A stretch of DNA of 26,892 nucleotides from a virus. Position 1 is the stretch's first letter. Every line of letters begins with the position of its first letter. The stretch spans positions 1 to 26,892 of the IMG/VR virus record IMGVR_UViG_3300031720_000017; one strand, written 5' to 3'. A program made the position numbers and the translations under genes. The notes beneath the pieces are model-generated. The model was not told the DNA's origin. It ran no database searches and was given only the letters and a program-made list of their open reading frames with translations. Positions 4,101 through 22,560 of this stretch are shown one piece after another.

Positions 4101-4414
4101 TGGACCTCTCTGCTTTCCTTTTCGACCCGGACGACGATGGGCAGCTTGCGCTGTTCGGCGATCTGAACTACCTCGCGCACGAGTCGATTGTGTCGGCGCT
4201 TTCAACCGTGATTGACCACCGCCCGCTGTTCGGCGAGATGGACGCTGCCTGGGCGTTCGAGCACGACCGCGAGCACCGCGCGATTGCTACGGCCTTGGGT
4301 ATCGCCGCACCTCCCGATCTGTCCGTAGTGGACTTCGAGGACGATTCGGCAGAAACTTGGCTCCTTTACCACAAGCAGCACCACGACCTCATCAACTTGG
4401 CCCTTGGATTGTGA
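4100..4414 (+). CDS. Small acidic phage protein of unknown function
   Basis: A 104-residue acidic protein rich in Asp, His and Trp (FLFDPDDDGQLALFGD near the N-terminus; YHKQHHDLINLALGL at the C-terminus). Its ATG overlaps the upstream micro-gene stop by one base and its TGA overlaps the GTG of the downstream ejection-type gene, so it is translationally coupled on both sides. Helical content seems high and no membrane segment is present. It lies between the tailspike and the internal virion proteins, so a virion accessory or assembly role is plausible but unproven. No family was recognised. Confidence 0.75.
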   Translation: MDLSAFLFDPDDDGQLALFGDLNYLAHESIVSALSTVIDHRPLFGEMDAAWAFEHDREHRAIATALGIAAPPDLSVVDFEDDSAETWLLYHKQHHDLINLALGL

Positions 4415-5376: not shown

Positions 5377-6540
5377 ATGGCTGAAATCGACCAAGCAACA
5401 GCGGACGCCGCGATCAACTCCTACGGTCCGCAGATTCGCGCGCGCTCCAAGCGTCGTGACGAACTGGCGACGGAAGTGGGCGACCTCGGGAAGAAGGAAG
5501 TCGCCGAACGAGAGAAAGAGGCTGGGATGATCGAGGAGCGCGGAAAGACGATCAAGCCGAAGCTCGGAGAAATCGAGAAGAAACTCGGCCAGCGCCCGAG
5601 CGCAGCGGTCAGCGAGGAGCAGATTCCGAACTACGTGCGCCCCAAAGGGGACAACAAGGAACTGGAACGCGGTATGTCGGCGCTCGCCGTGGCCTCGATG
5701 TTGGTCGGCGTCGCAACGCGCCAGCCTTTCTACGGTGCCGCGCAGGCGATGACGGGGTTCATGAAGGGTTACATGGACGCCGACGAGAAGGCGGTCAACG
5801 AGTCGATGCGCGTGTACGACAAGAATCTCCAGGCGATCAAGGAGCGCAATGCCTCCAAGCGCCGCGCGATCGAGGGCGCGATCAAGAACTACGAGAACGA
5901 CCTCCTCGGGATGCAGCAGCAGTTGAAAATCATCTCGGCGCAGTACGACGACCCGATCCTCGCGCAGAAGGTGCGAGTCGGTTCCATCTCCGACCAGCGC
6001 GATATTGCGCTGAAGCAGTTGACCGCCGAAGGGAACGCGATCGACCACCTGATTCGCGCGCAGGAAACTATGCTCTACCACCAGGCGATGCTGCGTGACC
6101 GTGTCGCGAAACGCACGAGCGGCGGCGCAGGGGTTTCGCCCTCCTCGACCGACAAGATGACCGCGCTTCAGATCCTCAAGTCCGACCCGCGCGTGTCGAA
6201 GATGGATGACGACAGTCGTGTGGCGCTCTCGGCCGAAGTCGCCTCGCGCGCCAAGAGTCTCGTGAAGGCGAACGAGGTGGCGGACTTCGCGGCGGGTGTC
6301 GATCAGGCGATGGACGACCTGGAAGCCGAAGGGATGCTCAAGCCGGGCGTGAAACAGCCATGGTATCGACCCGACACCCCTGCGAGTTTCCAACGTCCGG
6401 GCGGGGGCGCGAGCGCACCCGAGAAGGACGAGCTTGCAGATCAGGCCCGCGCCGCGATCGCTGGCGGGAAAGACCCGGAAGCCGTGAAGCAGCGCTACCG
6501 GCAGATGACCGGGAAGGACTTGCCCGATGGGGGCGTTTGA
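5377..6540 (+). CDS. Internal virion / ejection protein, coiled-coil rich
   Basis: A 387-residue protein starting 3 bases after the preceding stop. Residues about 20-75 are highly charged and coiled-coil-like (KRRDELATEVGDLGKKEVAE). A short hydrophobic stretch at about 103-130 (ALAVASMLVGVATRQPFYGA) is followed by a second long helical region (LQAIKERNASKRRAIEGAI) and a disordered C-terminus. Middle position between a gp14-like and a very large gp16-like protein suggests the second ejection protein of a podovirus. Its stop overlaps the next gene's start by 14 bases. No catalytic motif is visible. Confidence 0.62.
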   Translation: MAEIDQATADAAINSYGPQIRARSKRRDELATEVGDLGKKEVAEREKEAGMIEERGKTIKPKLGEIEKKLGQRPSAAVSEEQIPNYVRPKGDNKELERGMSALAVASMLVGVATRQPFYGAAQAMTGFMKGYMDADEKAVNESMRVYDKNLQAIKERNASKRRAIEGAIKNYENDLLGMQQQLKIISAQYDDPILAQKVRVGSISDQRDIALKQLTAEGNAIDHLIRAQETMLYHQAMLRDRVAKRTSGGAGVSPSSTDKMTALQILKSDPRVSKMDDDSRVALSAEVASRAKSLVKANEVADFAAGVDQAMDDLEAEGMLKPGVKQPWYRPDTPASFQRPGGGASAPEKDELADQARAAIAGGKDPEAVKQRYRQMTGKDLPDGGV

Positions 6541-9500
6541 CGATCTTCCGACAGTCAAGGGGAAAGACCCGTTTGCGGACCTCCCCGACAAGAAGCAGCC
6601 CGGCGTCGCCGATCGCGTCACCGACGCGCTGAAGTTCTCCACCTTCCCCGAAGCAGAAGCGGCCACTCACATCGCGAGCAGCGCCTTCGGGGCGGCCGCT
6701 GGCGGCATCACTGCCCTCGCCACGGGCGACCCCGACGCCGTTGAGCCTGTCGCCGAGTCCCTGACCTACGAACCGCGCACCGGCCGCGGGAAGGCCTACG
6801 CCGGCTCGGTCCAGAAGGCGTTCCAGGCCATCGACGAGTTCGGGGACTGGTCCGGGGAGAAGCTGCGCGAACTGGCGCCACGCGACCCGCGCGCCGTCGC
6901 CCTTGCAACCGCCTGGAGGACGCTCGTCAACCTGGTGCCCGGGTTCGTGCTGCCCGAGGCCTTGCGAGGACGCGCCAGGAGCGCCGAGCGTCCGCCCCCT
7001 CGTCCTGAGCCGAGCGCAGAGCCAAGCGCCCAGCCCGCGCCCACGGCGGCCCCGCCCGCGCGCGATTTTCCCATCACCGAGGAAACGCCCGCCGTACGAC
7101 CCGAGGGCAAGGTTACGCGCACGAAATCGGCACCGGGCGCGCTCTCGACCGACAATCCGTTCGCCGACCTTCCAGACCTCCCCAAAGAGCCTAGCCCGGA
7201 TGTCCCAGGCGCGCCGAGCGCGGCGCAACTGCTCGCTCGCGAGCCGCTGAAGGAGCTTGTCCCCACCGGCACGCCCGAGGGCCTTGCTAGGCTGAAGGAG
7301 CGCACCGCGCAGACCGAGCAGGAGTTCCGGCTCGAAGGCGAGTCCGAGGACCAGTTCCGCGCCCGGATGCTCGCCGAGAACCGCGAGCGCGAGGCGGCGA
7401 AGGCACGCGAGTCCGCCCCGCCCGCCGAGGAATTCACCCTCGCCGGGAGCGACCGGGCGACCGACCAGGCGGCGGCGCGCGGGCAGATGGAGTTGGCACC
7501 CCCTCCAGAATCTATTACCGGCGAGGGTATGACTACGGAGGTAAAGCCAACCGCGTTCGAGAAGTTCGATGCGGCCCGTCAAGCGTATAGGGCGCGCAAG
7601 ATCGGAGACGACGAATTTCTCGCGGCCAAGCGTGAGTGGGAACAGAATCAACGGGAGTTCGACGCTTCTCGCGGAGAACTTCCGCCAGAGCCGGAGAAAC
7701 CCAAGCCCCGCGCGCGCAAGGAAGGCCCGCCCGCCTCCATCTTGACGGCCATCAAAGGAAAGGGCGGCATCGACATCCGCGAGATTCTGGACCTGACGGG
7801 CGAGGGGCGCACCGGCAAGAAGGGAATTTCGCCGGGCTTGTTCACGAAGAAGGGTACGGGCTTGGACGATCTGGCGACTCGCCTACGCTCCGACGGCTTC
7901 GACATCCCGGAGGACGCGGCTGACGGCGGGGTGCAGGCGCTCCGGGACATGATCCAGGACGAGCTGGCCGGCCGCCGCAAGCATTATTCCGCCTACGACC
8001 AGGACCGCGTCGCCGCCCTGGAAGCCCAGCGGCGCGCGAAAGAGGTATCTGACGAAGTCTCGACAATCGGCGAGGACGAGTTCCTGACCGATGAGCAGGC
8101 CTTGGAGAAGTTCGGCCCGGGCACGCTCGGGATGAACCTCGCGTTGAACCCGGAGAACATCCGCCAGGCGGCGCGCGACATGAAGGCGGGCGCGAAGGTG
8201 GTCATCGAGGAGATGTTCGGAGTGCCGGGGCAGCACCGGAACCTCTACGGCCCGATCCGCGACCTCGAGCAGACGAACGTCGCGCGCATCGACCGCTGGG
8301 CGGCCGGAGAGTCGCACCGGATCAAGCAGGCGTTCCCGGAGAAGGCGGCGCGCGAGGATCTGACGCGGCGCCTGGTGCGCGGCGACCTTCGCGGCTTGAC
8401 CGGATTGCAACTGGAAGTCGCGCAAAAGCTCCAGCAGAACTACAAGCAGATGGGCGACTACGCGGTGAACGCCGAGCGCCTGGACGGGCTTCGCCAGAAC
8501 TACTCCCCGCAGATTTGGGACTTGAGCGACAAGCGCACGCGCGCCCTGATCCAGATGTGGCGCGACGCGCGCGAGGCCGGTCCGGTCAGGGAAACTTCGC
8601 CCCTGCTTCGCGACCCGAGCGGTTCGGGATCGTTCTCGCCCTTCACGCTCCAGCGCGCAATCTCCGACGTGTTCGAGGGGATGCAGATGGGGCTGAAACC
8701 GGCGTCCCTCGATGCCTCCGAACTGTTCACCACCTACGCGCGCTCGATGGGGCGGGCGGTCGAGCGCTCCAAGGCGATGACCTCGCTTCACGAATTGCTC
8801 TCCCAGGATGGCGACCCGATGGTGATGCCGGTTAAGCAGGCGCCGCGCGGGTACGTTCCGATTCGCTACCCTGAGCTCGAAGGCTACGCGGTTCACCCGG
8901 ACATCGCGCCCGCGGTGCGCGTGGTGTTGGAGTCGGATACGCCCGGCGCCATCGGGATTGCGCTCCAGTCGGCGGCCTACGCTTCCAAGCGCGGACTTGT
9001 TTCCTACTCGTTCTTTCACCCGATGTCGCTGTTCCTCGCGTGGGAGGGCAGTTTCCCGAAGGGTTCGATGCTCAATCCGAAGGGCGCGATCGACTCGGCG
9101 CTCAAGAAGTACCGCGAGGGCGGGCCGGGGGATGCCGTCGACAAGCTCCTGGAAGGCGGGTTGAAGCTCGGGGCGCCGCTTGAGGACTTGATGGGGCGCG
9201 AGCGCTTCGGGCGCGTCATGGACAAGGTTGAGCGCATGGCTGACCGGATCAAGCTCGGGGGTCTGGTGCGTGTGCCGCGGCGCATCGACCGCGGGCTTCA
9301 GCACGCGACCTGGGACTACGTCCAGACGGGATTCAAGCTCGACATCGCGACGCGCTTCTTCGAGGACCAGCTCGTGAAGAACGCAAAAGACATCGCGAGC
9401 GGCAAGATCACGGAGAAGGAAATCGCGCGCCAGGCGGCGGAAGCCGCGAACGGAATCCAGGGTGGTCTGAACTGGGAGCGCATGATCGACAAATTCGACA

Positions 9501-10192
9501 CGCCTGTCGGCCGCCGGGTCATGGCCGACATCCTCTCGAAGAACGGCCGGCGCTGGGCGCAGACCTTCGCCTTCGCCCCGGACTGGCTCGTGTCGACGGT
9601 CTCGACCTGGACGAACGCGGTGACGGGCGGGGAGCGCGCCGCGGTGCGCCGTTCGCTCGCCCGGCGCTACCTCATCACTTCGGCCATCATCACCTACAGC
9701 TACGGGAACGCGCTCAACTACTACTTCACCGGGCACTCGATGTTCGAGAATCGCTCGAACAAGAAGGGCGCGACCTGGATGGACGACATGAAGGCGAAAA
9801 CGGAGGTGCAGCTCGGGGGTGGTCTGCGGATCAACCCGAACAAGCACTTTCTGGAAGTGCCGCACATGGCGGCGGATCCCGTGCAGTTCATGTTGAACAA
9901 GGCAAACCCGCTCACCGTCGGCGAACCGCTCGAGCAGTTGTTCAACCAGCAGTGGCTCTCGACGGGCTACACGCCGCCGATCACGGAAAAGGGTGACAAG
10001 CCCGGCACCCGTGTGGCGAAGCGCATCGGCCACGTCGCGGGCAAGGTGCTACCGATCACCGGGCGCTCAGTCATGGAGCACGGAGCGCTCGGTGCGGGCG
10101 GGTTCCTTGGCTTCCCCGTGTCGGGTGTGTCCGAGGAGGAAAAGGAGCGCGAGCGCGTGCGGCGCACGATTCAACGGAGTGCTCGTCCGTGA
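6527..10192 (+). CDS. Very large internal virion / ejection protein
   Basis: A 1221-residue protein, the largest in the window, from ATG 6527 inside the end of the preceding gene. The N-terminal ~300 residues are disordered and Pro/Ala/Glu-rich and contain the short motif DPFADLPD, repeated as NPFADLPD about 190 residues later, beside FDDLP at residues 4-8. The central region is helical and charged. The C-terminal ~250 residues (RRWAQTFAFAPDWLVSTVST, then a hydrophobic stretch, then FLEVPHMAADPVQFMLN) resemble the C-terminal region of large phage internal proteins carrying an LPD38-type polyvalent-protein domain. No lytic transglycosylase motif was seen. Expected role: DNA ejection and envelope crossing. 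Its end overlaps the next GTG by four bases. Confidence 0.68.
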   Translation: MGAFDDLPTVKGKDPFADLPDKKQPGVADRVTDALKFSTFPEAEAATHIASSAFGAAAGGITALATGDPDAVEPVAESLTYEPRTGRGKAYAGSVQKAFQAIDEFGDWSGEKLRELAPRDPRAVALATAWRTLVNLVPGFVLPEALRGRARSAERPPPRPEPSAEPSAQPAPTAAPPARDFPITEETPAVRPEGKVTRTKSAPGALSTDNPFADLPDLPKEPSPDVPGAPSAAQLLAREPLKELVPTGTPEGLARLKERTAQTEQEFRLEGESEDQFRARMLAENREREAAKARESAPPAEEFTLAGSDRATDQAAARGQMELAPPPESITGEGMTTEVKPTAFEKFDAARQAYRARKIGDDEFLAAKREWEQNQREFDASRGELPPEPEKPKPRARKEGPPASILTAIKGKGGIDIREILDLTGEGRTGKKGISPGLFTKKGTGLDDLATRLRSDGFDIPEDAADGGVQALRDMIQDELAGRRKHYSAYDQDRVAALEAQRRAKEVSDEVSTIGEDEFLTDEQALEKFGPGTLGMNLALNPENIRQAARDMKAGAKVVIEEMFGVPGQHRNLYGPIRDLEQTNVARIDRWAAGESHRIKQAFPEKAAREDLTRRLVRGDLRGLTGLQLEVAQKLQQNYKQMGDYAVNAERLDGLRQNYSPQIWDLSDKRTRALIQMWRDAREAGPVRETSPLLRDPSGSGSFSPFTLQRAISDVFEGMQMGLKPASLDASELFTTYARSMGRAVERSKAMTSLHELLSQDGDPMVMPVKQAPRGYVPIRYPELEGYAVHPDIAPAVRVVLESDTPGAIGIALQSAAYASKRGLVSYSFFHPMSLFLAWEGSFPKGSMLNPKGAIDSALKKYREGGPGDAVDKLLEGGLKLGAPLEDLMGRERFGRVMDKVERMADRIKLGGLVRVPRRIDRGLQHATWDYVQTGFKLDIATRFFEDQLVKNAKDIASGKITEKEIARQAAEAANGIQGGLNWERMIDKFDTPVGRRVMADILSKNGRRWAQTFAFAPDWLVSTVSTWTNAVTGGERAAVRRSLARRYLITSAIITYSYGNALNYYFTGHSMFENRSNKKGATWMDDMKAKTEVQLGGGLRINPNKHFLEVPHMAADPVQFMLNKANPLTVGEPLEQLFNQQWLSTGYTPPITEKGDKPGTRVAKRIGHVAGKVLPITGRSVMEHGALGAGGFLGFPVSGVSEEEKERERVRRTIQRSARP

Positions 10193-10443
10193 AGAAAGAA
10201 AATCTCTCCTCTCTCGGGAAGCAGGCGGAAAAGCTGCTCTCGGCGATCATGGACGATATGGAGAAGGACGCAAAATCGGCCAAGAAGAACAAGGACCACA
10301 AGCCGAAGTATTCGCTTACCGATCACATGAAGGTGCTGGACCGAGTAGGCAAGTTCGAGGCTATCCGGGCGAAACTTGACACGCCAGAGGGTAGCTTTTT
10401 CAACAACGGCGGGGCAAAAGGAGACGACGATGGAGATGAATGA
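10189..10443 (+). CDS. Small charged phage protein
   Basis: An 84-residue lysine-rich protein from GTG 10189 (GTGA overlap with the ejection gene). It has a helical, highly charged N-terminal half (EKLLSAIMDDMEKDAKSAKK), a SLTDHMKVLDRVGKFEAIRA helix and a short acidic tail (KGDDDGDE). The composition resembles small nucleic-acid or packaging proteins, and a small-terminase-like role is conceivable given its place at the end of a virion module, but no diagnostic motif is visible. It overlaps the next gene by 14 bases. Confidence 0.75.
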   Translation: MKKENLSSLGKQAEKLLSAIMDDMEKDAKSAKKNKDHKPKYSLTDHMKVLDRVGKFEAIRAKLDTPEGSFFNNGGAKGDDDGDE

Positions 10444-11005: not shown

Positions 11006-11340
11006 GCCTGAACGCTTTCGCCCCGCAGGGCAACACGGTTCTGATCACCGCGGCCGTTTCGCCTCCTACGGGGGTCCAGGCTCCAACCTTCGGCACGAAT
11101 ACGCTGAACGCGCAGCAATTCAGGATCAAGAATTCCGCGACCGCTGACGTAGCGATCGGTTACGGCGCCACGGCTTCCGCTGCCACGACGAATGCTGCGA
11201 TACCTGGCGCCGCGTCGCAGAGCGTGATCGTCGGTGCTGGTCAGACCGAAGTGTTCACCTTCCCGCCAGCGTCGTTCTTCTCGGCGGCGATCGGAGCAGC
11301 GACCGGCGCGGTCTATATCACCCCAGGCGACGGCGTATGA
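11002..11340 (+). CDS. Probable small beta-rich structural protein
   Basis: A 112-residue protein composed of short Ala/Thr/Val strands (NTVLITAAVSPPTGVQ, FRIKNSATADVAIGYG, SVIVGAGQTEVFTFPP, AVYITPGDGV), giving an immunoglobulin- or jelly-roll-like pattern of beta strands. Such proteins in late phage operons are usually decoration or minor tail proteins. It has ATGA overlaps with both neighbours, so stoichiometric co-expression with the next beta-rich protein is likely. The role is inferred from composition and context only. Confidence 0.72.
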   Translation: MSLNAFAPQGNTVLITAAVSPPTGVQAPTFGTNTLNAQQFRIKNSATADVAIGYGATASAATTNAAIPGAASQSVIVGAGQTEVFTFPPASFFSAAIGAATGAVYITPGDGV

Positions 11341-11810
11341 GCTTGAAGGGCGGACAGTCCACCTCGCTCGAGACGATCGAGGCGCAACCGATTGGGATTG
11401 ACCCGACGTCGATCGGCGCGTGCCCGAGATGGGTGAAGGTCGGAGTCGCGATTTCGCACGTCGCGTTCCAAGCCGCGGCGCTCACGAACAGCATCAACCT
11501 GTTCGTACTGCCAGCGGGTGCCGACATTCACGAAGTGAAGATCAAGCACTCAACAGCCTTTGCTGGGGGTGCTATCGCTTCCTACACAATCTCGGTGGGT
11601 ATTTCTGGAACACTCGCGAAGTACGCCGCAGCGTTCGACGTGTTTCAAGCGGTGAGTGGCACCGCGTTCCAGCTCTCGCACCTCGTCGGCGGGGAGAATC
11701 AGGGAGCGACTACGCAAATTCTCGCCACGGCCACCTCCACGGTCGGAAACCTGAACGCCTCGACCCAGGGCACCGTGGATATTTGGGCGCTTCTTAGCAA
11801 AACGCCGTGA
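11337..11810 (+). CDS. Probable structural protein, beta-rich
   Basis: A 157-residue protein coupled by ATGA to the preceding beta-rich gene. Repeated amphipathic strands (WVKVGVAISHVAFQAAALTN, NLFVLPAGADIHEVKIKHS, ASYTISVGISGTLAKYAAAF, GTVDIWALLSKTP) give the look of a phage decoration, fibre or minor head protein. No enzyme motif, signal peptide or membrane segment is seen. It is the last virion-like gene before the lysis cassette and its stop overlaps the GTG of the DUF5675 gene. Confidence 0.75.
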   Translation: MSLKGGQSTSLETIEAQPIGIDPTSIGACPRWVKVGVAISHVAFQAAALTNSINLFVLPAGADIHEVKIKHSTAFAGGAIASYTISVGISGTLAKYAAAFDVFQAVSGTAFQLSHLVGGENQGATTQILATATSTVGNLNASTQGTVDIWALLSKTP

Positions 11811-12244
11811 AGCTCCGAATCGGACGCGGCCCTTCAACCGACGAGGGCACGTTCGGGAGGATGATTCTCGAAGGCGGTCAAGAGTGGGACTGCCTCGAGC
11901 TTCCTTGGCGCAACAATCAGAACGGTCTCTCGTGCGTGTCGCTCGGGAACTACACCGCCGCGCTCGCGTGGTCGGACCACTTCGGGCGCTACCTGTACCA
12001 CCTTCGGGACGCGAACGGCCGGCACGCAATCGAAATCCACAACGCGAACTTTGCCGGCGACGTCACACTCGGCTGGAAGTCGCAACTTCATGGGTGCGTC
12101 GCGCCTGGGCTTGGTATCGGCGAGCTCAACCGCGGAGACGGGGTCAAGCAGAAGGCGGTACTGCGTTCGATCGACGCGCTGAATCAGTTTATGGCTGCTA
12201 CAGGTGGAGCGGACCTCGACATCGAAATCGGGGCTGCTTCGTGA
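11807..12244 (+). CDS. DUF5675-family protein in endolysin position
   Basis: A 145-residue protein from GTG 11807 (GTGA overlap). The opening TDEGTFGRM, the CLELPWRNNQNGLSC block (29-43), the SLGNYT block (45-50) and the EIHNANFAGD...LHGCVAPG pattern (76-100; His78, Asn81, Asp85, His95, Gly96, Cys97) match the DUF5675 family of phage lysis regions. The late His/Gly-Cys arrangement is reminiscent of L,D-transpeptidase-like active sites. It is the first gene of the lysis block, upstream of holin and spanins, and no other endolysin is present, so a peptidoglycan-acting role is plausible. The biochemical activity of the family is not something I can confirm from sequence. Confidence 0.82.
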   Translation: MKLRIGRGPSTDEGTFGRMILEGGQEWDCLELPWRNNQNGLSCVSLGNYTAALAWSDHFGRYLYHLRDANGRHAIEIHNANFAGDVTLGWKSQLHGCVAPGLGIGELNRGDGVKQKAVLRSIDALNQFMAATGGADLDIEIGAAS

Positions 12245-12630
12245 ATTGGCAGTTCGGCTCTGGTCCAAAAGGGGCATTGCTGGAAAGGCAAAGAATGCAA
12301 GAAAAACGTGTTATTCACCCGGTCGATTCCAACGGAGACGAGCTCTCCAGAAGGAGCGACGACGTGACAATCAAATTTCCCTTCGGTGGCGAGATTCGGG
12401 CGCACGGGCGTTCGGTCATTCTCACCATCATTTGCTTCGCTCTGATCGCCGTGCTGATCTGGCACGACTTCAAGACGACGCAGCAGAACACGGCAGTCGT
12501 TGAATCGTTGCAGGCGGTCGCGTTCGTGCTGACCTTGTCTGAGCGCGAGCGCAAGCAGTTGAACCTCGTGATGCCGGAATCCCTTCGGCACAAGCTAGAG
12601 AAGGAGAGTCGAAATGATCCACCTCGTTGA
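12241..12630 (+). CDS. Single-span membrane protein of the lysis region
   Basis: The frame gives 129 residues from GTG 12241 (GTGA overlap with DUF5675). Two internal starts are credible: ATG 12295 with AAAGG 6 bases upstream, and GTG 12364 with AGAAGGAG about 7 bases upstream. The 12241-12363 stretch uses several rare AGA/AGG codons, so the shorter forms may be the true product. All forms share one membrane helix (SVILTIICFALIAVLIWHDF) and a C-terminal helical domain (SERERKQLNLVMPESLRHKL). Between a putative endolysin and the holin, it may be an antiholin or second holin. Its end overlaps the holin start by 17 bases. Confidence 0.7.
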   Translation: MNWQFGSGPKGALLERQRMQEKRVIHPVDSNGDELSRRSDDVTIKFPFGGEIRAHGRSVILTIICFALIAVLIWHDFKTTQQNTAVVESLQAVAFVLTLSERERKQLNLVMPESLRHKLEKESRNDPPR

Positions 12631-12835
12631 CGACTGGAAAAAGTGGTGGAAGTGGCTCTCGACGTGGCTGCTTGCCATGAACGGAACTTTCATCGTGGCC
12701 TACGAACAGTTCGAGACGGTGAAGGCCTACATCCCGGACAAGTGGGCGCATGTGATCGTCGGGACGCTCCTGATCCTCACGTTCCTTGGTCGGATCATCA
12801 AGCAGGGTCAAAATGTTCAGCCTCCTGCTCAGTAG
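12614..12835 (+). CDS. Holin
   Basis: A 73-residue protein with AAGGAG (12601-12606) 7 bases before ATG. It opens with MIHLVDDWKKWWKWLSTWLL, the Trp-rich VDDWK...W start typical of a class II phage holin family, followed by two membrane segments (about 14-31 and 46-61, HVIVGTLLILTFLGRII) and a short polar tail. Holins form inner-membrane lesions that time lysis and release endolysin. It is followed at once by spanins, as in standard lysis cassettes. Its 3' end overlaps the i-spanin start by 23 bases. Confidence 0.88.
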   Translation: MIHLVDDWKKWWKWLSTWLLAMNGTFIVAYEQFETVKAYIPDKWAHVIVGTLLILTFLGRIIKQGQNVQPPAQ

Positions 12836-13052
12836 GATCGGCGGTTACCTAGCCGCCGCGGTCGGGATCCTGGTTGCCGTCCTCGCGGCCCTAGGGCTTG
12901 CGAAGCGCGCCGGTCGCAAAGAGGAACAGGACAAGGAACTCGAACAGTCTTTCAAGCAGTCGAAGGAAGCCAATGAAATCGACAGCCAAGTACGCGCTAT
13001 GCCTGATTCTGAGCTTGACAAGCGGCTGCGGGACGTTCAACGCAAAGACTGA
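12813..13052 (+). CDS. i-spanin (Rz-like inner-membrane spanin)
   Basis: A 79-residue protein; ATG 12813 is preferred to an in-frame start at 12786 because the latter lies deep in the holin gene. The N-terminal membrane anchor (residues about 7-28, GGYLAAAVGILVAVLAALGL) is followed by a basic patch and a long charged helix (KEEQDKELEQSFKQSKEANE), ending MPDSELDKRLRDVQRKD, typical of short Rz-like proteins. The o-spanin starts inside this gene in the +1 frame. Together they would fuse inner and outer membranes in the last step of lysis of a Gram-negative host. Confidence 0.85.
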   Translation: MFSLLLSRIGGYLAAAVGILVAVLAALGLAKRAGRKEEQDKELEQSFKQSKEANEIDSQVRAMPDSELDKRLRDVQRKD

Positions 13053-13161
13053 GTGCTCGTGGTCCAAGGTCATCACGGTGTCGAAGGACGATGTTCTGAC
13101 CCGACTGACCAAAGAGGAAATCGTAGCGCACAATGAAAAATTCGCTCGTTTTTGTAGGTGA
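12973..13161 (+). CDS. o-spanin (Rz1-like outer-membrane lipoprotein)
   Basis: A 62-residue protein whose ATG 12973 has AAGGA 5 bases upstream and lies inside the i-spanin gene in another frame, so 80 bases are read in two frames. A lipoprotein signal is visible: basic start, hydrophobic core (YALCLILSLTSGCG), lipidated Cys19. The lipobox is imperfect (Thr-Ser-Gly-Cys, Thr at -3). The mature part ECSWSKVITVSKDDVLTRLT...IVAHNEKFARFC matches the Rz1-like group with a conserved Cys-x-Trp, Asp-x-Leu-Thr and His-Asn pattern. Cys29 and Cys61 could form a disulfide. The nested arrangement with Rz is classic. Confidence 0.88.
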   Translation: MKSTAKYALCLILSLTSGCGTFNAKTECSWSKVITVSKDDVLTRLTKEEIVAHNEKFARFCR

Positions 13162-14498: not shown

Positions 14499-14779
14499 GG
14501 CTTGTACCCCGAGCAAGCGTCGATACGGCAGATGGGCTGATACCGCTTTGCCTTGTCCGCATAATCGGGATGGAAATGCTCGGCAAGCGGCTTGTATCCA
14601 AAGCCGGTGATGATTTCCACTCCGCACTTCGGACATTCGGCCAGATCGCAGGACCAGAGCTTGTACGGCCCCCAAGGACCATCAAGCTCGCGAGTGAGCG
14701 GCATTCCCTCCTCTACGTACGTACCGGACTTTTTCGGCGTGAGGAACACCTTGCACTTCAGACACGCTAGACCGCTCAT
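14495..14779 (-). CDS. Zinc-ribbon phage protein
   Basis: A 94-residue protein; ATG 14779 is chosen because it overlaps the recT stop as ATGA. CLKC (residues 6-9) and CPKC (about 49-52) are the expected zinc ligands, and a VEEGMPLTRELDGPWGPYKL block lies between them. Proteins of this form (CLxCKxFLxPKKxGxxVEEG) are common in phage early regions beside recombination genes; no activity is established to my knowledge. It is the first gene after recT in a tightly coupled leftward operon. Confidence 0.75.
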   Translation of the reverse strand: MSGLACLKCKVFLTPKKSGTYVEEGMPLTRELDGPWGPYKLWSCDLAECPKCGVEIITGFGYKPLAEHFHPDYADKAKRYQPICRIDACSGYKP

Positions 14780-15717
14780 GATTTCTCCGGCGGACACAGA
14801 TCCAGCACGAGCTTGCGCTTCGCCTCTGGCAGCTTCGCTGCGTACTCGCGCGCGAGCTTGAAGTCCTTGGAGCGCGCGGCGTCGTAGGCGAGCGCCATCA
14901 CTTCCTCGATTTCGTCGGCCGTCATCGGCATGGTTTCCGTCGACGGCGCGACGAGCTTTTCCTGCGGCTCCTCGTAGGGCGTGAGCACGGTTCCCTCGAT
15001 CGCCTCGCGCAGTTCGACGCTCCTCGAGCTGTCGGCGGCGCCCTCGAGCGCGACCAGTTGCCCAATTTCAACCGACGCGGGGAGGTACTTCACGACTTGC
15101 AGGAGCGCGATCTTGCGCGCGTACATCTCGAAATTCGCGTGCGCGTAGTGCTTCTCGCCGACGCGGTTGTAGCGCTTCAGGTGGCGCTCGATCTTCACCC
15201 GCGGGAACACTTCGATGATCGGCCACTCTAGGCCCTTCACGCGCCCGACGGCGTAGGTGTGCGTCAACTTCGCGACGTCGTCCTCACCGTGCGGCTTGTG
15301 CTTCACGTAGGGCGCATCCCCCATCGCGTACTCGAAGTCGTCGCCCTCGAACACGGCTCCGGTCCAACACACGGCGCGGCCGGCGCGGTGGACGAGGTCC
15401 ACGTAGCCCCGCCAGCCGGGCACGAACGTCGCCTCGCCCTTGTAGGGCACTAGGTAGGCGTGGCCCATGACGCCGAGCTCCAGGCCGAGTTGGCTGGAAA
15501 GGATCACGGCGGCGAATACGCTGCGCGGGTCGCACTCCGCGAGCTTGGGGTTCAGGCGAAAGCACGTCAGCGCGAGGCGCGTGTAGCGCTCGATGTTCGA
15601 GCGAAGGTGCTCGGGTAGCGCGCGCGCCACCTCGCCCTTGTAGGCGTCCAGCAGCGCCGGGAAGCCCTTCGGTTTGTCGTCCTGCTTTGCGTCCTTGAAG
15701 TCGGTTAGATTAGCCAC
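14776..15717 (-). CDS. recT: RecT-family single-strand annealing protein
   Basis: A 313-residue protein from GTG 15717, eight bases inside the upstream gene's end. Core RecT features are visible: ERYTRLALTCFRLNPKLAEC, the SVFAAVILSSQLGLELGVMG helix, the YLVPYKGEATFVPGWRGYVD block and ARKIALLQVVKYLP near residue 210. RecT binds single-stranded DNA exposed by a 5'-3' exonuclease and anneals complementary strands for phage recombination and concatemer formation. The YqaJ-type exonuclease two genes upstream is its natural partner. The C-terminal ~70 residues (VAPSTETMPMTADEIEEVMA) look like a separate accessory segment. Length is within the usual RecT range. Confidence 0.95.
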   Translation of the reverse strand: MANLTDFKDAKQDDKPKGFPALLDAYKGEVARALPEHLRSNIERYTRLALTCFRLNPKLAECDPRSVFAAVILSSQLGLELGVMGHAYLVPYKGEATFVPGWRGYVDLVHRAGRAVCWTGAVFEGDDFEYAMGDAPYVKHKPHGEDDVAKLTHTYAVGRVKGLEWPIIEVFPRVKIERHLKRYNRVGEKHYAHANFEMYARKIALLQVVKYLPASVEIGQLVALEGAADSSRSVELREAIEGTVLTPYEEPQEKLVAPSTETMPMTADEIEEVMALAYDAARSKDFKLAREYAAKLPEAKRKLVLDLCPPEKS

Positions 15718-15988
15718 TGATGGTCTCCAGTAGATGTCGCGGGAAAGGACAGTCTTTGTACGCTTGCTGTTTGATGTGCTCGATGTACTCGTCGCACTGG
15801 TCGAGAATTTTCCGCTGCTCGGGCGTGAAATCGTATTCGACTTCGGTGCGTCCGTCGGGATAAATCAGCATGCGCGGTAAGGTGATTGAGTAGACCCGCA
15901 TCTTGATTTCGATGGTTGGCTGGATTGCTTCCATGAACAGCCGATGCTGTTCTTCGTACCAGCGCCTTTCGTATTCCACGCGGTTCAC
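15710..15988 (-). CDS. Small protein between exonuclease and RecT genes
   Basis: A 92-residue protein from GTG 15988 with AGGGGAAAG about 5 bases upstream. It is rich in charged and aromatic residues (YERRWYEEQHRLFMEAIQPT, then YPDGRTEVEYDFTPEQRKIL) and appears mixed alpha/beta. Its TAA lies inside the recT start region (8-base overlap), so it is coupled to recT. A recombination accessory role is likely from position. Family not recognised. Confidence 0.72.
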   Translation of the reverse strand: MNRVEYERRWYEEQHRLFMEAIQPTIEIKMRVYSITLPRMLIYPDGRTEVEYDFTPEQRKILDQCDEYIEHIKQQAYKDCPFPRHLLETISG

Positions 15989-15997
15989 GGCTTTCCC

Positions 15998-16270
15998 CTA
16001 AGCTGCGTAGGGCAGCGAATCGAATTCGGGGAACAGAACACGCGCGAACGGCTCTGCGATCTGATCGCCATGCCGCAACACGGCGTCCACCTCTTGCTGG
16101 TGGTCGTATCCTGGGACGGCGTCGCAATACGCCTTCCAGGTTCCTTCGACCCGCGTCGTAGCCACTACGAGCACCTTGGTTGCAAGCGCTCGGCGGCGGA
16201 TGACTGGTCGAAACGTATCGTCGTACACGGTTACCTCCGGGAAATGGCGTATGTATTGGGGCGTTCTCAT
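15998..16270 (-). CDS. Small protein of the recombination operon
   Basis: A 90-residue protein; ATG 16270 is chosen because it overlaps the exonuclease stop as ATGA, whereas the longer frame from 16576 is a shadow of the exonuclease gene. The sequence (FPEVTVYDDTFRPVIRRRAL, TTRVEGTWKAYCDAVPGYDH, then VLRHGDQIAEPFARVLFPEF) suggests a compact alpha/beta fold. It lies between the exonuclease and recT with the next small gene. Function unknown. Confidence 0.72.
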   Translation of the reverse strand: MRTPQYIRHFPEVTVYDDTFRPVIRRRALATKVLVVATTRVEGTWKAYCDAVPGYDHQQEVDAVLRHGDQIAEPFARVLFPEFDSLPYAA

Positions 16271-17193
16271 TTCAGCAAAAACCTTCTCGTCGCCTCTCCC
16301 ACCTTCGCGCACTCCTCCGCAATCTGCGGGTACTTCTCGCGCAGCTTGTCGAGGTCGATGCGCTGCGCGGGCTTCGCGGCATTCCACGTTGCAAGCCGCT
16401 TGCCGTCGGGTGCGACGAGGATCGAAGCCTCGGCCATGTAGCTTTGGATCGAAGCGCTGATCGCGTCGGCGGCGCTCTCCGCTGCCTTGATGTTCTCGCG
16501 AATCGCGCGCAACTGGCTGTGACCCAGTACCACCTCGGGCGTCGCGACCTTGGTGCTCCCGTCCGTCCTCGCCCAAATCCTACGCGCATCTTCGGGCGAG
16601 CGCGCGACGGGCGGGATACCGGACTGCACCAGTTGCCAGAACTCGCGCTCCTGCGCGATCAGCTTGTCGATCGCCGCCTGGTCCCAGGGCACGACGTACA
16701 GGTGCCGCGCCTCGTTCCCGAACAACACGTTGATTTCCACGCCCGCGATCTGCTGGCGCTGGGCGCCGTATACCACCATTTCGTGAAGGCACTGCACGAG
16801 CACGTCCCAGGGCACGTCCCCGGATCCCGGTTCCCCGAACTCGCGCAGGCGCCCGGGCGAGAAGAACTTGACCTCGTGCAAGCGCTCGGTCTTGTAGTTG
16901 ATGCCGTCGAAGTGCGAACCCATGGTGAGGCCTTCGATGCGGTGCTTCAGCTCGAGCGCAGGCAGGCGCGTGATGTTCTCGCCCGTGTCCTGCTCGTGCA
17001 TCATGATGATCGCGTCTTGGAAGTGCAGGCCGGCGCGCACCTCGAACTTGTCGGAGATGTCCTCCGGCTCCATCAGGCCGCGCTTGGTGGCCCACACCTT
17101 CGCGGGCGTGGAATACTTGGACAGCCCAAGCGCGGGCGCGGCCTCGGTCGAGTAGAGCGCGCCGCGGCGCTGGGTGGAATCGAATTCAGGCAC
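16267..17193 (-). CDS. YqaJ-type viral recombinase exonuclease
   Basis: A 308-residue protein from GTG 17193 with AGGAGG about 7 bases upstream. It carries PD-(D/E)XK nuclease landmarks of the YqaJ/lambda-exonuclease family: the GLHFQDAIIM helix (55-64), MGSHFDG (91-97, Asp96), HEVKFF (106-111, Glu107 and Lys109) and QCLHEMVVYGAQ. It would resect double-stranded ends 5' to 3' to load RecT, encoded downstream. The C-terminal third (EVVLGHSQLRAIRENIKAAE and onward) is the helical extension often present in this group. It overlaps the small gene upstream by eight bases and the gene downstream by four. Confidence 0.93.
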   Translation of the reverse strand: MPEFDSTQRRGALYSTEAAPALGLSKYSTPAKVWATKRGLMEPEDISDKFEVRAGLHFQDAIIMMHEQDTGENITRLPALELKHRIEGLTMGSHFDGINYKTERLHEVKFFSPGRLREFGEPGSGDVPWDVLVQCLHEMVVYGAQRQQIAGVEINVLFGNEARHLYVVPWDQAAIDKLIAQEREFWQLVQSGIPPVARSPEDARRIWARTDGSTKVATPEVVLGHSQLRAIRENIKAAESAADAISASIQSYMAEASILVAPDGKRLATWNAAKPAQRIDLDKLREKYPQIAEECAKVGEATRRFLLK

Positions 17194-17380
17194 GGTTCGC
17201 CTCCTCTCGTATCGCTTGCGCGCGGTCGAGCCCGTCGATGCGGCCCTGCGCTCGCCCGAGTCGGTAGACCGCGAGCAGCACGTCTTTCACCCCGCGGGTA
17301 GGCGTGAGCATGAGCGTGTACGCCTCAAGTGCTGAAGCGTCGCTCGGTACGAGCGGGTCGTTGTGGTTCAATTCAGCCAT
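17186..17380 (-). CDS. First gene of the leftward recombination operon, unknown
   Basis: A 64-residue protein whose ATG 17380 follows a strong AGGAAGGA site and a clear promoter (17405-17433). It is mostly helical (DASALEAYTLMLTPTRGVKD, VLLAVYRLGRAQGRIDGLDR) and ends with an Arg/Glu-rich helix. Being first behind an operator-bearing promoter, it would be among the earliest products. It overlaps the exonuclease start by eight bases. No family recognised. Confidence 0.72.
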   Translation of the reverse strand: MAELNHNDPLVPSDASALEAYTLMLTPTRGVKDVLLAVYRLGRAQGRIDGLDRAQAIREEANRA

Positions 17381-17404
17381 GTCGTTCCTTCCTGTTAGTG
17401 GATA

Positions 17405-17433
17405 ATTGTCACGCTATTGAGTTGCGAAGTCAA
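17405..17433 (-). promoter_or_regulatory. Leftward early promoter for the recombination operon
   Basis: On the minus strand TTGACT (17428-17433) and GACAAT (17405-17410) are separated by 17 bases, matching the sigma70 boxes at 5/6 and 4/6. It lies just upstream of the strong ribosome site of the 17380 gene. Its -35 box overlaps a palindromic operator candidate. Confidence 0.65.
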
Positions 17434-17441
17434 TTCACTTC
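17426..17441. promoter_or_regulatory. Candidate repressor operator overlapping the -35 box
   Basis: The 16-base GAAGTCAATTCACTTC is symmetric at 14 of 16 positions (arms GAAGT/ACTTC, AATT centre). It covers the -35 box of the leftward promoter and lies 15 bases from the ATG of a divergent Cro/CI-like gene, the expected place for that protein's binding site. Confidence 0.55.
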
Positions 17442-17456
17442 GTGCATCATGACGAA
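17439..17456. promoter_or_regulatory. Second inverted repeat, abutting the HTH gene start
   Basis: TTCGT (17439-17443) and ACGAA (17452-17456) flank an 8-base spacer and end directly before ATG 17457. It overlaps the first palindrome by three bases. It may be a second, weaker operator or a leader hairpin covering the start of the regulator gene. Confidence 0.38.
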
Positions 17457-17735
17457 ATGCCGACAATCAACGGTCAGACCCCGCTCGCGCGGTTGCTCGC
17501 CGCTCGCGGTCTCACGCAGCAAGCCCTCGCCAAGCTCGTAGGCTGCGGCCAGGCGAGCGTTTCCAGGCTCGTGAACGGTAAGACCTCGGACCCGGCGCTC
17601 GCCTACCGCGTCGTCGACGTCCTGGACCCGGCCCGCCAGCACTTCAACGAACTCTTTCTGCTCTACCCCGAGCGCTTCCCGGACTGGCAACCTTGGGACC
17701 AAACGGCGAGCGTACCAAGCGAATCGCAAGGGTAA
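17457..17735 (+). CDS. Cro/CI-like helix-turn-helix regulator
   Basis: A 92-residue protein with an XRE/Cro-type helix-turn-helix at residues about 10-42 (LARLLAARGLTQQALAKLVG, then CGQASVSRLVNGKTS). The C-terminal part is short (YRVVDVLDPARQHFNELFLL), so there is no CI-type cleavage or large dimer domain, which favours a Cro-like role. GTG 17442 is an alternative start five codons upstream; neither has a clear Shine-Dalgarno, and the ATG abuts an inverted repeat. It is the only rightward gene between two leftward operons, divergent from the recombination operon it probably represses. Confidence 0.88.
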   Translation: MPTINGQTPLARLLAARGLTQQALAKLVGCGQASVSRLVNGKTSDPALAYRVVDVLDPARQHFNELFLLYPERFPDWQPWDQTASVPSESQG

Positions 17736-17752
17736 GTAACCACTCACGTTCG

Positions 17753-18199
17753 TCATTTGTCGGTTTGCGTCCGCGTTTTCTGCGTCAAGTAGGCCCGGAC
17801 CTTCGCCCTTACGTCCTCGGGCATCGGGCGCTTCGGGGAGCGCGGCTCGGCGGCCTTGGCGCGTTCTTCAAGGCGCGCCCGGACCCTGCGGTGCAGCGCT
17901 TCCCCTAACTGCATGAAGCGGTCGACGTGCTCGGCGTCCCGGCAGATGAGGCCTAGCCCGTCGTACACGGTCGCGCGGTCGTTCTTGCCGCGGTGCCACT
18001 CGGAGCCCGCGCACCCGTCGATCGCGAGCTTCAGATCGTCCACCGAGTAGCCGGCCTCTAGCATCGCCCGGACGGTTCGGCTGCGGCCCGCGTCCAGGCG
18101 CGAGCGCTCGTGACCCATCACCTCGCGCCAATAGTCGAACACTTCCCGGATCTGATCGCCCGGACGGTCGCCTTGCGAAAGTTGTAGCACTTCTCCCAT
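17753..18199 (-). CDS. Replication-protein-like helical protein
   Basis: A 148-residue protein; ATG 18199 with GAGGAGAG just upstream is preferred to the longer frame. The sequence EVFDYWREVMGHERSRLD (about 20-37), VRAMLEAGYSVDDLKLAIDG, then WHRGKNDRATVYDGLGLICR and DAEHVDRFM matches a small helical domain seen in the C-terminal part of many phage replication initiator or helicase-loader proteins. The usual N-terminal winged-helix part is absent, so this is either a stand-alone version or a truncated one. A strong terminator precedes it, which would make its expression depend on read-through. Confidence 0.78.
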   Translation of the reverse strand: MGEVLQLSQGDRPGDQIREVFDYWREVMGHERSRLDAGRSRTVRAMLEAGYSVDDLKLAIDGCAGSEWHRGKNDRATVYDGLGLICRDAEHVDRFMQLGEALHRRVRARLEERAKAAEPRSPKRPMPEDVRAKVRAYLTQKTRTQTDK

Positions 18200-18213
18200 G
18201 GCTCTCCTCGGAA

Positions 18214-18255
18214 GAAAAAGCCCCGCGGCCGGCACAGGGTCCGGGCGCGCGGGGC
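18214..18255 (-). terminator. Strong rho-independent terminator / attenuator
   Basis: On the minus strand an 8-bp stem (GCCCCGCG with CGCGGGGC; 18248-18255 with 18220-18227) with a 20-base loop that can pair further is followed at once by TTTTT (18215-18219). This is a textbook terminator for leftward transcription. The ribosome site of the next gene (start 18199) begins right after it, so it is placed to control that gene. Confidence 0.8.
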
Positions 18256-18310
18256 GAAAACCGCCCGCCGTGCGGAAAGGGAGGAATACGCACGGGTAGG
18301 TCGGGCGGGT

Positions 18311-18508
18311 CTAGGCGTCGCGCACCTTGCAGTGCGGCGACAGGTCGGACAGTTCGAGCGGCTTCTGCGCTTCGAGCGCTTCCCCTACGCGCGCGGTGGC
18401 GTCGGCGAGCTCGGCGTCCGTGAAGCGCCGTTTGAAGGCGATTCCCTCGTGCACCAGGTAGGCCTCGGTCACTTTGGCGAGCGTGTCTTCAAGATCGAAT
18501 TGCGGCAT
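18311..18508 (-). CDS. Small acidic helical protein of unknown function
   Basis: A 65-residue protein; ATG 18508 follows GGGAGGGAA. It is helical and charged (FDLEDTLAKVTEAYLVHEGI, then FTDAELADATARVGEALEAQ) and ends with SDLSPHCKVRDA. It is the last gene before the terminator at 18214-18255. The longer frame upstream overlaps the zinc protein gene and is rejected. No family recognised. Confidence 0.65.
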   Translation of the reverse strand: MPQFDLEDTLAKVTEAYLVHEGIAFKRRFTDAELADATARVGEALEAQKPLELSDLSPHCKVRDA

Positions 18509-18510
18509 GG

Positions 18511-18741
18511 CTATTCCCTCCCTCGGTTGTCGCGGTTCAAGCTGGCGGCTTGCCCGTGGCGCGGATCGTCGAGCCGTTGGTCCTCGTCGTCGAAGTCCTC
18601 CGGGTCGTAGCCTTCGGCGCAAAAGCCCGGAGTCGGGGCGCCGCAACTCTGGCACACAAGCTCATCGGTGCCGAGCACGTCCCCGCACTCCGCGCAGTAG
18701 TCGAGGCCGGGGTCTGGCGTAGTCGTCTTGGGCGTGGTCAT
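18511..18741 (-). CDS. Zinc-ribbon protein
   Basis: A 76-residue acidic protein whose ATG 18741 overlaps the upstream stop as ATGA. Two Cys pairs, CAEC (16-19) and CQSC (30-33), form a zinc ribbon; the C-terminal half is disordered and Asp/Glu/Arg-rich (GYDPEDFDDEDQRLDDPRHG). It may be a small nucleic-acid- or protein-binding adapter. Similar small double-CxxC proteins recur in this phage, but this one is not clearly related to the others. Confidence 0.72.
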   Translation of the reverse strand: MTTPKTTTPDPGLDYCAECGDVLGTDELVCQSCGAPTPGFCAEGYDPEDFDDEDQRLDDPRHGQAASLNRDNRGRE

Positions 18742-19214
18742 TGGAGCCTCGGCGCGGGTGGGTTTTCTCGAATGTACCTGCCGACCATGGTCTCGTTTCC
18801 TCCCGCATTGACTTCGACGAGGGGCGACTCCTCGATGCTCTCGCCGTGGATTTTTGCGGTCATGAGGTACTGGCGTTGCGCTGTGAGCACGTTGACGATG
18901 AGCACCTCCTCGCGGTCCGGTCGCGCCTTTACGCTCTCGGGGATTTCCTCACCAGGCGCGAGCGTGCAGATCCACGCCTCGATCACGAGGACCGCGGCGG
19001 CGATGTTCGGCAGCGTAGCGGCGCCCTGGTGCATCGCGGCTTGAGCGTCCTTGCTCAGGTGCATCATCGTAACCAGTTCGGGCTCGGACAGCGTCCCGTC
19101 TGGTTTGCCCGAGAACAAGAGGAGCGCGGCCGGCACTTCGAGTCCGTGCGCGCGGATTCGGCGCGCGGCGCGCAACGTGGTGGTGCGGATGGTTTCGAGG
19201 TTTTGCGGTGTCAT
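18738..19214 (-). CDS. Conserved-type phage protein, unknown function
   Basis: A 158-residue protein with AAAGGAAAACC directly before ATG 19214, one of several genes in this operon sharing that leader. Helical N-terminus (LETIRTTTLRAARRIRAHGL), a central segment (NIAAAVLVIEAWICTLAPGE) and a beta-rich part (REEVLIVNVLTAQRQYLMTA) suggest a compact alpha/beta fold. The last residues overlap the zinc protein start by four bases. No catalytic motif recognised. Confidence 0.75.
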   Translation of the reverse strand: MTPQNLETIRTTTLRAARRIRAHGLEVPAALLLFSGKPDGTLSEPELVTMMHLSKDAQAAMHQGAATLPNIAAAVLVIEAWICTLAPGEEIPESVKARPDREEVLIVNVLTAQRQYLMTAKIHGESIEESPLVEVNAGGNETMVGRYIRENPPAPRLQ

Positions 19215-19303
19215 GGTTTTCCTTTCGGTTTGTTGAGTCGTTCAATCCACAGGCGCAACAGCTCCACGAGCTCGGAGAGACGATCGCGGAGCCAGGCGCG
19301 CAT
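19211..19303 (-). CDS. Micro-gene, 30 residues, amphipathic
   Basis: A 30-codon frame from ATG 19303 to TGA 19211-19213. It starts 3 bases after the upstream stop (19307) and its TGA overlaps the next ATG as ATGA, so it fits exactly into a gap of about 90 bases. The peptide alternates Arg/Glu with Leu/Trp (MRAWLRDRLSELVELLRLWI) and would form one strongly amphipathic helix, then a basic tail. It may be a small membrane-surface or regulatory peptide. Junction geometry and composition support it; no homology is known to me. Confidence 0.5.
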   Translation of the reverse strand: MRAWLRDRLSELVELLRLWIERLNKPKGKP

Positions 19304-19306
19304 GGT

Positions 19307-19471
19307 CTAGTCCAGGTCGAGCGCGCACTGCTGCTCGCCCGGACGGTTAGGCTTACGAGGTGCGCTCGCCCGCTCGGGCGCGCTCGGGGGCGGGGTGAGT
19401 GCAAAGTCCGCCTCGAGCACGTCGAGCAGTTCGGCAAGCGCCCGGGCCTCGCGTGAGGTGGGCTGCGGCAT
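19307..19471 (-). CDS. Small protein of unknown function
   Basis: A 54-residue protein; ATG 19471 overlaps the upstream TGA by one base (TGATG). It has a helical first half (SREARALAELLDVLEADFAL) and a Pro/Arg-rich second half ending QCALDLD. The longer frame in the same phase overlaps the upstream gene and is rejected. No function assignable. Confidence 0.6.
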   Translation of the reverse strand: MPQPTSREARALAELLDVLEADFALTPPPSAPERASAPRKPNRPGEQQCALDLD

Positions 19472-19794
19472 CAGTGCGTCCCCCAGGTTGCGCCCGCGTC
19501 GTGCGAGTGCACGCCCGCCGTGAGCGCTTGCGGGTTGAGCTTGCGCCCGCTCGTCGCTTCGGCGCGCGCGATCGCACGGCGCAGGCTGGGGCTCCCGCTC
19601 GCGGCGAGCGCTCGGTACGCGCACAGGTCCGACACCCCGCGCGAGTCGGTCCATCCCTTGAAGGCGATGGATCCGGCCGGCCCGATGACGACGGAAGCCT
19701 GTCCGCTTGCGAGCGCGCTCCCTAGCCGCGCGATTGCGTCTTTCATGCGGTCGCGCTGCTGGGCGGTGAGGTTCTGAGCAGTTGTGCAGGGCAT
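19471..19794 (-). CDS. Phage protein of unknown function
   Basis: A 107-residue protein with a helical start (AQQRDRMKDAIARLGSALAS), a strand pair (ASVVIGPAGSIAFKGWTD) and a distinctive C-terminus (AEATSGRKLNPQALTAGVHS then HDAGATWGTH). I recall similar small proteins in early operons of proteobacterial phages without an assigned activity. The His/Asp-rich C-terminus could bind metal. It is packed 3 bases after the 264-residue gene. Confidence 0.73.
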   Translation of the reverse strand: MPCTTAQNLTAQQRDRMKDAIARLGSALASGQASVVIGPAGSIAFKGWTDSRGVSDLCAYRALAASGSPSLRRAIARAEATSGRKLNPQALTAGVHSHDAGATWGTH

Positions 19795-19797
19795 GGC

Positions 19798-20592: not shown

Positions 20593-20613
20593 GGTTTCCC
20601 TTTCGTTGTGGTG

Positions 20614-22508: not shown

Positions 22509-22560
22509 GGGTTCCCTTTCGTGGTCGTTTGGTTTGGACGCAAATCCAGAGAGCATACAA

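Follow-up and report, generated by a model that had tools for sequence, protein, structure and literature searches.

DUF5675 as a probable phage endolysin with a predicted L,D-transpeptidase fold

We propose that a DUF5675 protein encoded in the lysis cassette of an IMG/VR viral record is most likely the endolysin of its phage, a cysteine-dependent enzyme with the L,D-transpeptidase fold that would be released by a holin. The initial annotation had suggested DUF5675 as the probable endolysin, and the suggestion stands, still worded as probable, because DUF5675 replaces the canonical endolysin in a conserved slot of Mu-like phages, canonical endolysins are nearly absent from phages that carry it, small transmembrane (TM) proteins are encoded next to it, it is found fused to an SLT domain, and its predicted fold is that of L,D-transpeptidases.

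The DUF5675 gene lies in a lysis cassette

The window, by which we mean the whole stretch of DNA that was analyzed, is the entire linear IMG/VR record of 26,892 bases; it has no end repeats and is probably a fragment, with part of the phage missing. The open reading frame (ORF) at positions 11807-12244 (plus strand) starts with GTG and encodes 145 amino acids (aa). It matched the Pfam family DUF5675 (PF18925) with an E-value of 5.2e-20 and 71.9 bits, exceeding the gathering cut-off of 26.7, and thus is a member of this family. PHROG_1501, a PHROG to which no function is assigned, matched it as well. The upstream ORF (11337-11810, plus strand), for which the Pfam scan gave no match, ends in a TGA that overlaps the GTG of the DUF5675 gene (GTGA).

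Downstream, also on the plus strand, lies a gene for a 111-aa protein (12295-12630) that has one hydrophobic, TM-like stretch, as judged by eye, and no match in the Pfam scan; it is possibly a second holin or an antiholin. It is followed by a holin gene (12614-12835, plus strand; phrog_1356, 1.3e-14) and by the gene of an i-spanin with an N-terminal TM segment (12786-13052, plus strand; Rz-like spanin phrog_1026, 3.9e-14), for which an ATG at 12813 is a more likely start than 12786. Nested in the i-spanin gene is the start of a putative o-spanin gene (12973-13161, plus strand), whose product reads as an Rz1-like lipoprotein from its lipobox, LTSGC, and from the overlap, and has no Pfam match. 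With a holin and a spanin encoded close downstream, the DUF5675 gene is part of a lysis cassette, as the initial annotation had it.

That annotation had also noted no recognizable lysozyme, amidase or peptidase in the cassette. We scanned 28 ORFs of the window, itself probably a fragment, and no lysozyme, amidase, peptidase or transglycosylase domain scored over the Pfam cut-off; the holin and the i-spanin lie outside this set and were scanned with PHROGs only. The closest lysin-like Pfam match below threshold was a PdaC deacetylase (E 0.11, ORF 10189-10443), and a tail-lysozyme PHROG matched the ORF at 304-2394 below threshold (0.092). Because records of this type are often fragments, the absence of an endolysin from the window proves little by itself, and thus relatives were tested instead. 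The objection that the protein should not be called an endolysin since the window is a fragment was rejected; the relatives answer it in part. In the window phage, the DUF5675 protein would be the sole endolysin.

DUF5675 replaces the canonical endolysin in Mu-like phages

Two Vibrio Mu-like phages, martha 12B12 and ZX4290, carry DUF5675 between the late activator and the DksA/DUF2730/terminase block, and the records of both have no annotated endolysin. A scan with the TerL of these phages yielded 80 Mu-like loci, nine of which had DUF5675 in the fetched stretch. Of the remaining 71, whose fetched stretch (the part that was screened) had no DUF5675, we took 22 as controls; all were from records of at least 34 kb, with some long ones left out. 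The DUF5675 set (n = 28) was made up of 12 of 16 fetched isolates and 16 viral contigs, a mixture of phages of which eight were known to be Mu-like by TerL. The records were selected by the analyst, the choice preceding every lysin search, and a lysin family was counted at E≤0.001.

GH24 (PF00959) was found in 0/28 DUF5675 records and 6/22 controls, GH108 (PF05838) in 0/28 and 12/22 (with one broken copy among the 12), Amidase_2 (PF01510) in 0/28 and 3/22, and SLT (PF01464) in 1/28 and 1/22. One control, G033, had GH24 and also, at a distance, a piece of GH108 that contains two stops. Taken together, one of the 28 DUF5675 records had any canonical endolysin vs. 21 of the 22 controls (Fisher, 7e-12), the families searched being not an exhaustive list. 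Because the controls were all Mu-like and the 28 DUF5675 records were mixed, the like-for-like test is the one confined to Mu-like phages, in which a canonical endolysin was present in 0/8 with DUF5675 vs. 21/22 controls (p = 1.5e-6), where related phages are not independent. Three further families, PF13539, PF08291 and PF01520, whose models did match in control genomes, were found in none of the 28 DUF5675 records and none of the 22 Mu-like controls. PF00182 and PF11860 had no match anywhere, control genomes included, and are therefore uninformative.

The canonical endolysins of the controls (n = 21) were located 2.27-3.60 kb upstream of the TerL match, and DUF5675 in the nine Mu-like loci was located 2.57-3.18 kb upstream of it (by subtraction, 2.84 and 2.62 kb in L301 and L304); in martha and ZX4290, the distance was 3.03 and 2.69 kb. 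All distances were taken to the start of the TerL match, from where the domain match begins in the controls and from where the ORF begins for DUF5675, and that of L330, which has a shorter flank, was corrected by hand. One locus with DUF5675 (L259) and two with GH108 (L260 and L261) have Mor, two small ORFs, DksA, DUF2730, TerS and TerL in common around the slot. These results show, for Mu-like phages and not for close relatives of the window phage, that DUF5675 stands in for the canonical endolysin. To extend the slot test to that lineage, we searched with four proteins of the window; no relatives of the upstream gene product, the holin or the i-spanin were found, and the 1,221-aa protein had one weak match.

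The sole control without a canonical endolysin match, L321, has in its slot a 177-aa ORF (3627-4160) with no Pfam match and a match to the function-less PHROG_3108 (3e-26), which makes it a second candidate for an unrecognized endolysin family.

Canonical lysin domains in other DUF5675 phages

A search for another endolysin, by which the proposal could be checked, found none in the 28 ORFs of the window, a probable fragment, and an SLT domain in a single one of the 28 DUF5675 records, L224, where the ORF that holds it is 514 aa long and about 10 kb away from DUF5675. In a further 50 DUF5675 records, Amidase_2 was found in none (0/50) and GH24 in three (3/50), none of them an intact stand-alone gene. 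In two large phages of this set, GH24 is within ORFs of 809 and 812 aa, a size that suggests a tail lysozyme. In L202, a broken C-terminal piece of GH24 (L202:5942-6117), in two frames and with one TAG, follows directly on DUF5675 and a gene for GTA_holin_3TM, and may be the relic of a displaced lysozyme. Five DUF5675 phages contributed another 116 proteins to a Pfam scan, a set that excluded very short genes, the initial 1.1 kb of phi39:1 and many genes whose annotation clearly points to something other than a lysin; no lysin domain was among the best 25 of the 39 Pfam families matched.

These counts bear on the most serious alternative, that DUF5675 is a peptidoglycan-editing enzyme of the L,D-transpeptidase fold, acting by L,D-carboxypeptidase activity and D-amino-acid exchange like Tlde1a or by lipoprotein detachment like DpaA, which aids lysis or blocks superinfection while an unrecognized protein is the true endolysin. 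The two large phages (2/50 records) in which DUF5675 stands alongside a GH24 ORF of about 810 aa are consistent with such a role, as is phage JC1, which has a DUF2778 (Tlde1-type) gene plus a separate lysozyme gene (PMC9144972). In the Mu slot, however, DUF5675 is found instead of an endolysin and not beside one (the like-for-like counts above), and the scan of 116 proteins also argues against a hidden endolysin. We therefore consider an editing role unlikely.

DUF5675 also occurs within larger proteins. In two phage proteins of about 1,970 aa (L242:18-5915 and L220:6-5936), SLT is followed by DUF5675, and a 1,251-aa protein of Ralstonia phage RP31 contains DUF5675. Proteins of this kind would suit a virion-associated lysin that serves entry and not release, but the window protein stands alone, is 145 aa long and is encoded directly upstream of the holin and spanin genes, and it is stand-alone DUF5675 that occupies the endolysin slot of Mu-like phages, so that a role in entry seems very improbable.

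Small TM proteins are often encoded next to DUF5675

We then asked what the neighbors of DUF5675 encode, calling ORFs by a greedy procedure and TM proteins by hydropathy. A small TM protein was encoded at offset +1 from DUF5675 in 60/136 cases, at -1 in 35/131 and at +2 in 29/128, vs. 3-12% from an offset of 3 outward. Either -1 or +1 was occupied by a small TM protein in 76/127 loci, as compared with 12/97 for +4 and +5 (Fisher, p = 2e-13) and 9/95 for -5 and -4 (p = 2e-15). When stretches of five genes were considered, a small TM protein was present in 76/105 around DUF5675, 18/42 at +4 to +8 and 8/40 at -8 to -4, a contrast that is smaller on one side. By hydropathy, none of 140 DUF5675 proteins had a TM segment itself (0/140), as expected for a holin-dependent endolysin.

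Pfam identified GTA_holin_3TM in 2/10 flanking genes of one set and in one more, that of L202; ten other flanking genes, from nine isolates, had no match over the cut-off. A PHROG scan of 147 near genes (49 loci) gave two matches each to the holin phrog_3427 and the spanins phrog_89 and phrog_5151 (members may overlap), and likewise two members each of tail-lysozyme and baseplate families, all among the best 25 of 122 families. Among 147 far genes, no lysis family was in the best 25 of 166 PHROG families. The PHROG data are only suggestive of a lysis context. Some DUF5675 genes lie outside any evident lysis cassette; in Slickus01, for example, DUF5675 adjoins a thymidylate synthase gene.

Predicted fold and conserved residues

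The AlphaFold2 model of the window protein, built from a 104-member alignment, had a pLDDT of 97.1 and a pTM of 0.90. When it was compared with 993 chains by VIA-align, six rows had Z≥2, and all six were of the L,D-transpeptidase fold (Z 7.7-9.2): LdtMt5 (Z 9.2, rmsd 2.9, 101 aligned), LdtMt1 (Z 9.1, rmsd 2.4, 94 aligned), Csd6 (Z 8.9, rmsd 2.9, 111 aligned), Tlde1a (7uma; Z 8.7, rmsd 2.9, 103 aligned), LdtMab2 (Z 8.1, rmsd 3.3, 100 aligned) and DpaA (Z 7.7, rmsd 2.7, 106 aligned). A second AlphaFold model, of a martha-like DUF5675 member (pLDDT 97.3), was compared with 994 chains in the same way; the top 15 rows were of the L,D-transpeptidase fold, with Z from 6.4 to 10.4, and the next row had a Z of 2.7. 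The best rows were Pgp2 (Z 10.4), Csd6 (9.5) and Tlde1a (7uma; 8.9), and several Ldt enzymes (6.4-8.8) and a B. subtilis enzyme (6.4) were also among them. We take Pgp2, Bd1075 and 1zat to be members of this fold. Plain Foldseek against the PDB returned nothing below E 0.2 for both models, with L,D-transpeptidase-fold enzymes absent from the best rows, and the fold assignment depends on the second look of VIA-align. The comparison with L,D-transpeptidase-like folds, which the initial annotation had put forward as a check, thus came out positive by VIA-align in two models, and we assign DUF5675 this fold as a prediction.

Matches at the sequence level were weaker. Neither phmmer nor profile searches against PDB sequences gave a relevant match. 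The Tlde1_dom model (PF10908) matched 28 of 104 members at E≤0.1 (best, 7.8e-5), the window protein not being among them, and YkuD (PF03734) matched one of 104, with an E-value of 0.085. Alignment by hhalign to LdtB, LdtE and DpaA of E. coli was weak (probability 1.5%), yet the catalytic motifs were paired, IHNAN..LHGCV of the window protein with IHGTN..SHGCV of LdtB. Among predicted viral structures, the matches at E≤0.001 included, besides proteins that carry the name DUF5675, a crAss-like 'L,D-carboxypeptidase/transpeptidase' (8.3e-6); a Nodularia phage 'Endolysin' matched weakly (0.083).

We aligned 104 DUF5675 relatives, which are 24-46% identical to the window protein. Residues E31, N37, S42, Y49, R72, H78, G96, C97 and S121 were invariant, and N81 was conserved in at least 90%; the conserved His, Asn and Gly-Cys positions that had been pointed out as compatible with catalysis are therefore borne out across the family. 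C43 varies among the 104 relatives and was rejected as the catalytic cysteine. His78 and Cys97 are the candidate catalytic residues of the window protein, and Arg72 is invariant too. By motif and predicted fold, His78 and Cys97 would be equivalent to the known catalytic pair of L,D-transpeptidases. The class motif published for these enzymes is HXX14-17-[S/T]HGCh (PMC9638812). In 136 of 140 sequences that could be fitted to a pattern (4/140 could not), the spacing from H to C was 11 in 77 and 19 in 50. The window protein has LHGC; S or T is found at that place in 20/136 and H before GC in 16/136, so that most DUF5675 proteins retain H, G and C without the preceding S/T-H and lack the full [S/T]HGC signature of the YkuD family. 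This incomplete signature might suggest a non-catalytic or regulatory lysis protein with a retained fold, but the invariance of Cys97, His78, Gly96 and Arg72 in 104 relatives at 24-46% identity makes this the least credible alternative of all.

Proposed mechanism

We suggest the following mechanism for DUF5675 as an endolysin. Being soluble and without a signal or anchor, the protein would accumulate in the cytoplasm until the holin encoded downstream lets it out, and the spanin pair would then remove the outer membrane. In the YkuD/Tlde1-like fold, Cys97 would be the nucleophile and His78 the base, and an acyl-enzyme would probably be formed at meso-DAP(3)-D-Ala(4) of the stem peptide and be resolved by water. 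Lysis would need stems with a cross-linked D-Ala4 to be accepted (L,D-endopeptidase), by which cross-links would be undone. A pure carboxypeptidase like Csd6 would not explain lysis, because lysis must break cross-links. Many characterized enzymes of the L,D-transpeptidase fold cross-link or trim the wall network and do not break it.

On this point, the editing alternative gains some ground, given that Pgp2, Csd6 and Tlde1a head the structural matches to the second model, and that Csd6 is reported with LD-carboxypeptidase activity only and Tlde1a with carboxypeptidase and exchange activities (PMC9638812). Against it, a review reports LD-endopeptidase activity for LdtCd2 and LdtCd3, and not for other YkuD-type enzymes (PMC12729407), so that the chemistry we propose for DUF5675 has a precedent. 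More broadly, DUF5675 may be a distinct class of endolysin, a cysteine L,D-endopeptidase with the L,D-transpeptidase fold that lyses Gram-negative hosts by cutting meso-DAP(3)-D-Ala(4) in their cross-linked stems, and that replaces lysozymes, amidases and transglycosylases in tailed phages, being also present in a 5-kb ssDNA microvirus and, fused to a lytic transglycosylase, in giant phage proteins. We advance this wider reading tentatively, as a real possibility that falls somewhat short of being probable.

Relation to known systems

A partial precedent exists for one phage. In the available text of an mBio 2022 report (PMC9239132), a soluble protein of Vibrio phage Martha 12B12 with weak similarity to L,D-transpeptidase was suggested as the endolysin on the basis of synteny and HHpred, without an assay and without DUF5675 being named. 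The record of this phage (the same as our L003) annotates DUF5675 (VPCG_00031) in the slot of the putative endolysin, and VPCG_00031 is presumably the gene that was meant. That suggestion concerns one phage, whereas the present analysis is family-wide and adds the fold, the residues, the controls and the domain fusion. In the parts of the open-licence literature that were available, DUF5675 appears as a gene label only, and no family-wide endolysin claim for DUF5675 was found in the literature searched.

Tlde1a, a T6SS antibacterial effector (PF10908, formerly DUF2778), resembles DUF5675 in fold (Z 8.7 and 8.9) and has a Cys-dependent active site, but it belongs to another Pfam family and is no phage lysis protein; it is delivered into competing bacteria, where its activities are those of a carboxypeptidase and of exchange (PMC9638812). 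Csd6, Pgp2 and the YkuD L,D-transpeptidases are also similar in fold, but they are bacterial enzymes of wall maintenance, several of them multidomain. In phages, PhaLP includes YkuD among its classes of lytic domains, with 10 cases, one of which is PF10908 (PMC8310338), and a gut-phage survey describes one 15-domain endolysin with GH25 and YkuD (PMC13284279). As far as the available text of these sources goes, such proteins are rare, were assigned by YkuD or PF10908 models and have no link to DUF5675 (PF18925). The endolysins of Mu-like phages (GH108, GH24, Amidase_2 and SLT) share the slot, the neighbors and the presumed role with DUF5675 but are of other Pfam families. Mu gp22 is a SAR endolysin (PMC9239132), whereas DUF5675 proteins have no TM segment (the 0/140 above).

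If our reading is correct, a function would be given to a family that is labelled unknown in both Pfam and PHROGs and that is present in 124 phage records and several hundred viral contigs, and many phages seemingly without an endolysin would have one. Unlike the usual phage lysins, this one would be built on the fold of the bacterial enzymes that cross-link the wall. If the activity were that of an L,D-endopeptidase, the choice of bond would be one not met for phages in the literature searched, which would be relevant to enzybiotics and to the question of how a transpeptidase fold turns lytic.

Spread of the family and other genes of the window

A tblastn search (E≤0.01) of 50,697 phage records found DUF5675 relatives in 124, all of them below 60% identity; they are phages of Vibrio, Cellulophaga, Salinibacter, Rheinheimera, Alteromonas, Pseudomonas and others. 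Three small-alignment scans of viral contigs gave at least 479, at least 496 and at least 416 relatives, in overlapping sets, and 80 loci were retained per scan (240 loci). A DUF5675 ORF was found by profile in 241 of 242 loci (the 240 loci, L002 and the window); 230 of the 241 ORFs were 90-220 aa long and gave 140 representatives at 80% identity. A Microviridae genome of 5,035 bases has a DUF5675 gene as well (L016:7-384), whose product is a candidate lysis enzyme in this small ssDNA phage group.

Elsewhere in the window, positions 6527-10192 encode a 1,221-aa protein that has no Pfam match over the cut-off and one weak relative among the 50,697 phage records; by its position, it is probably a large virion protein. 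The product of 2395-4032 resembles a tail spike: it contains a domain of the pectate-lyase type (Pfam, 4.5e-7) and matches several tail-spike PHROGs. On the minus strand, at 14776-22560, RecT, a YqaJ-type exonuclease and an AAA ATPase make up a replication and recombination block.
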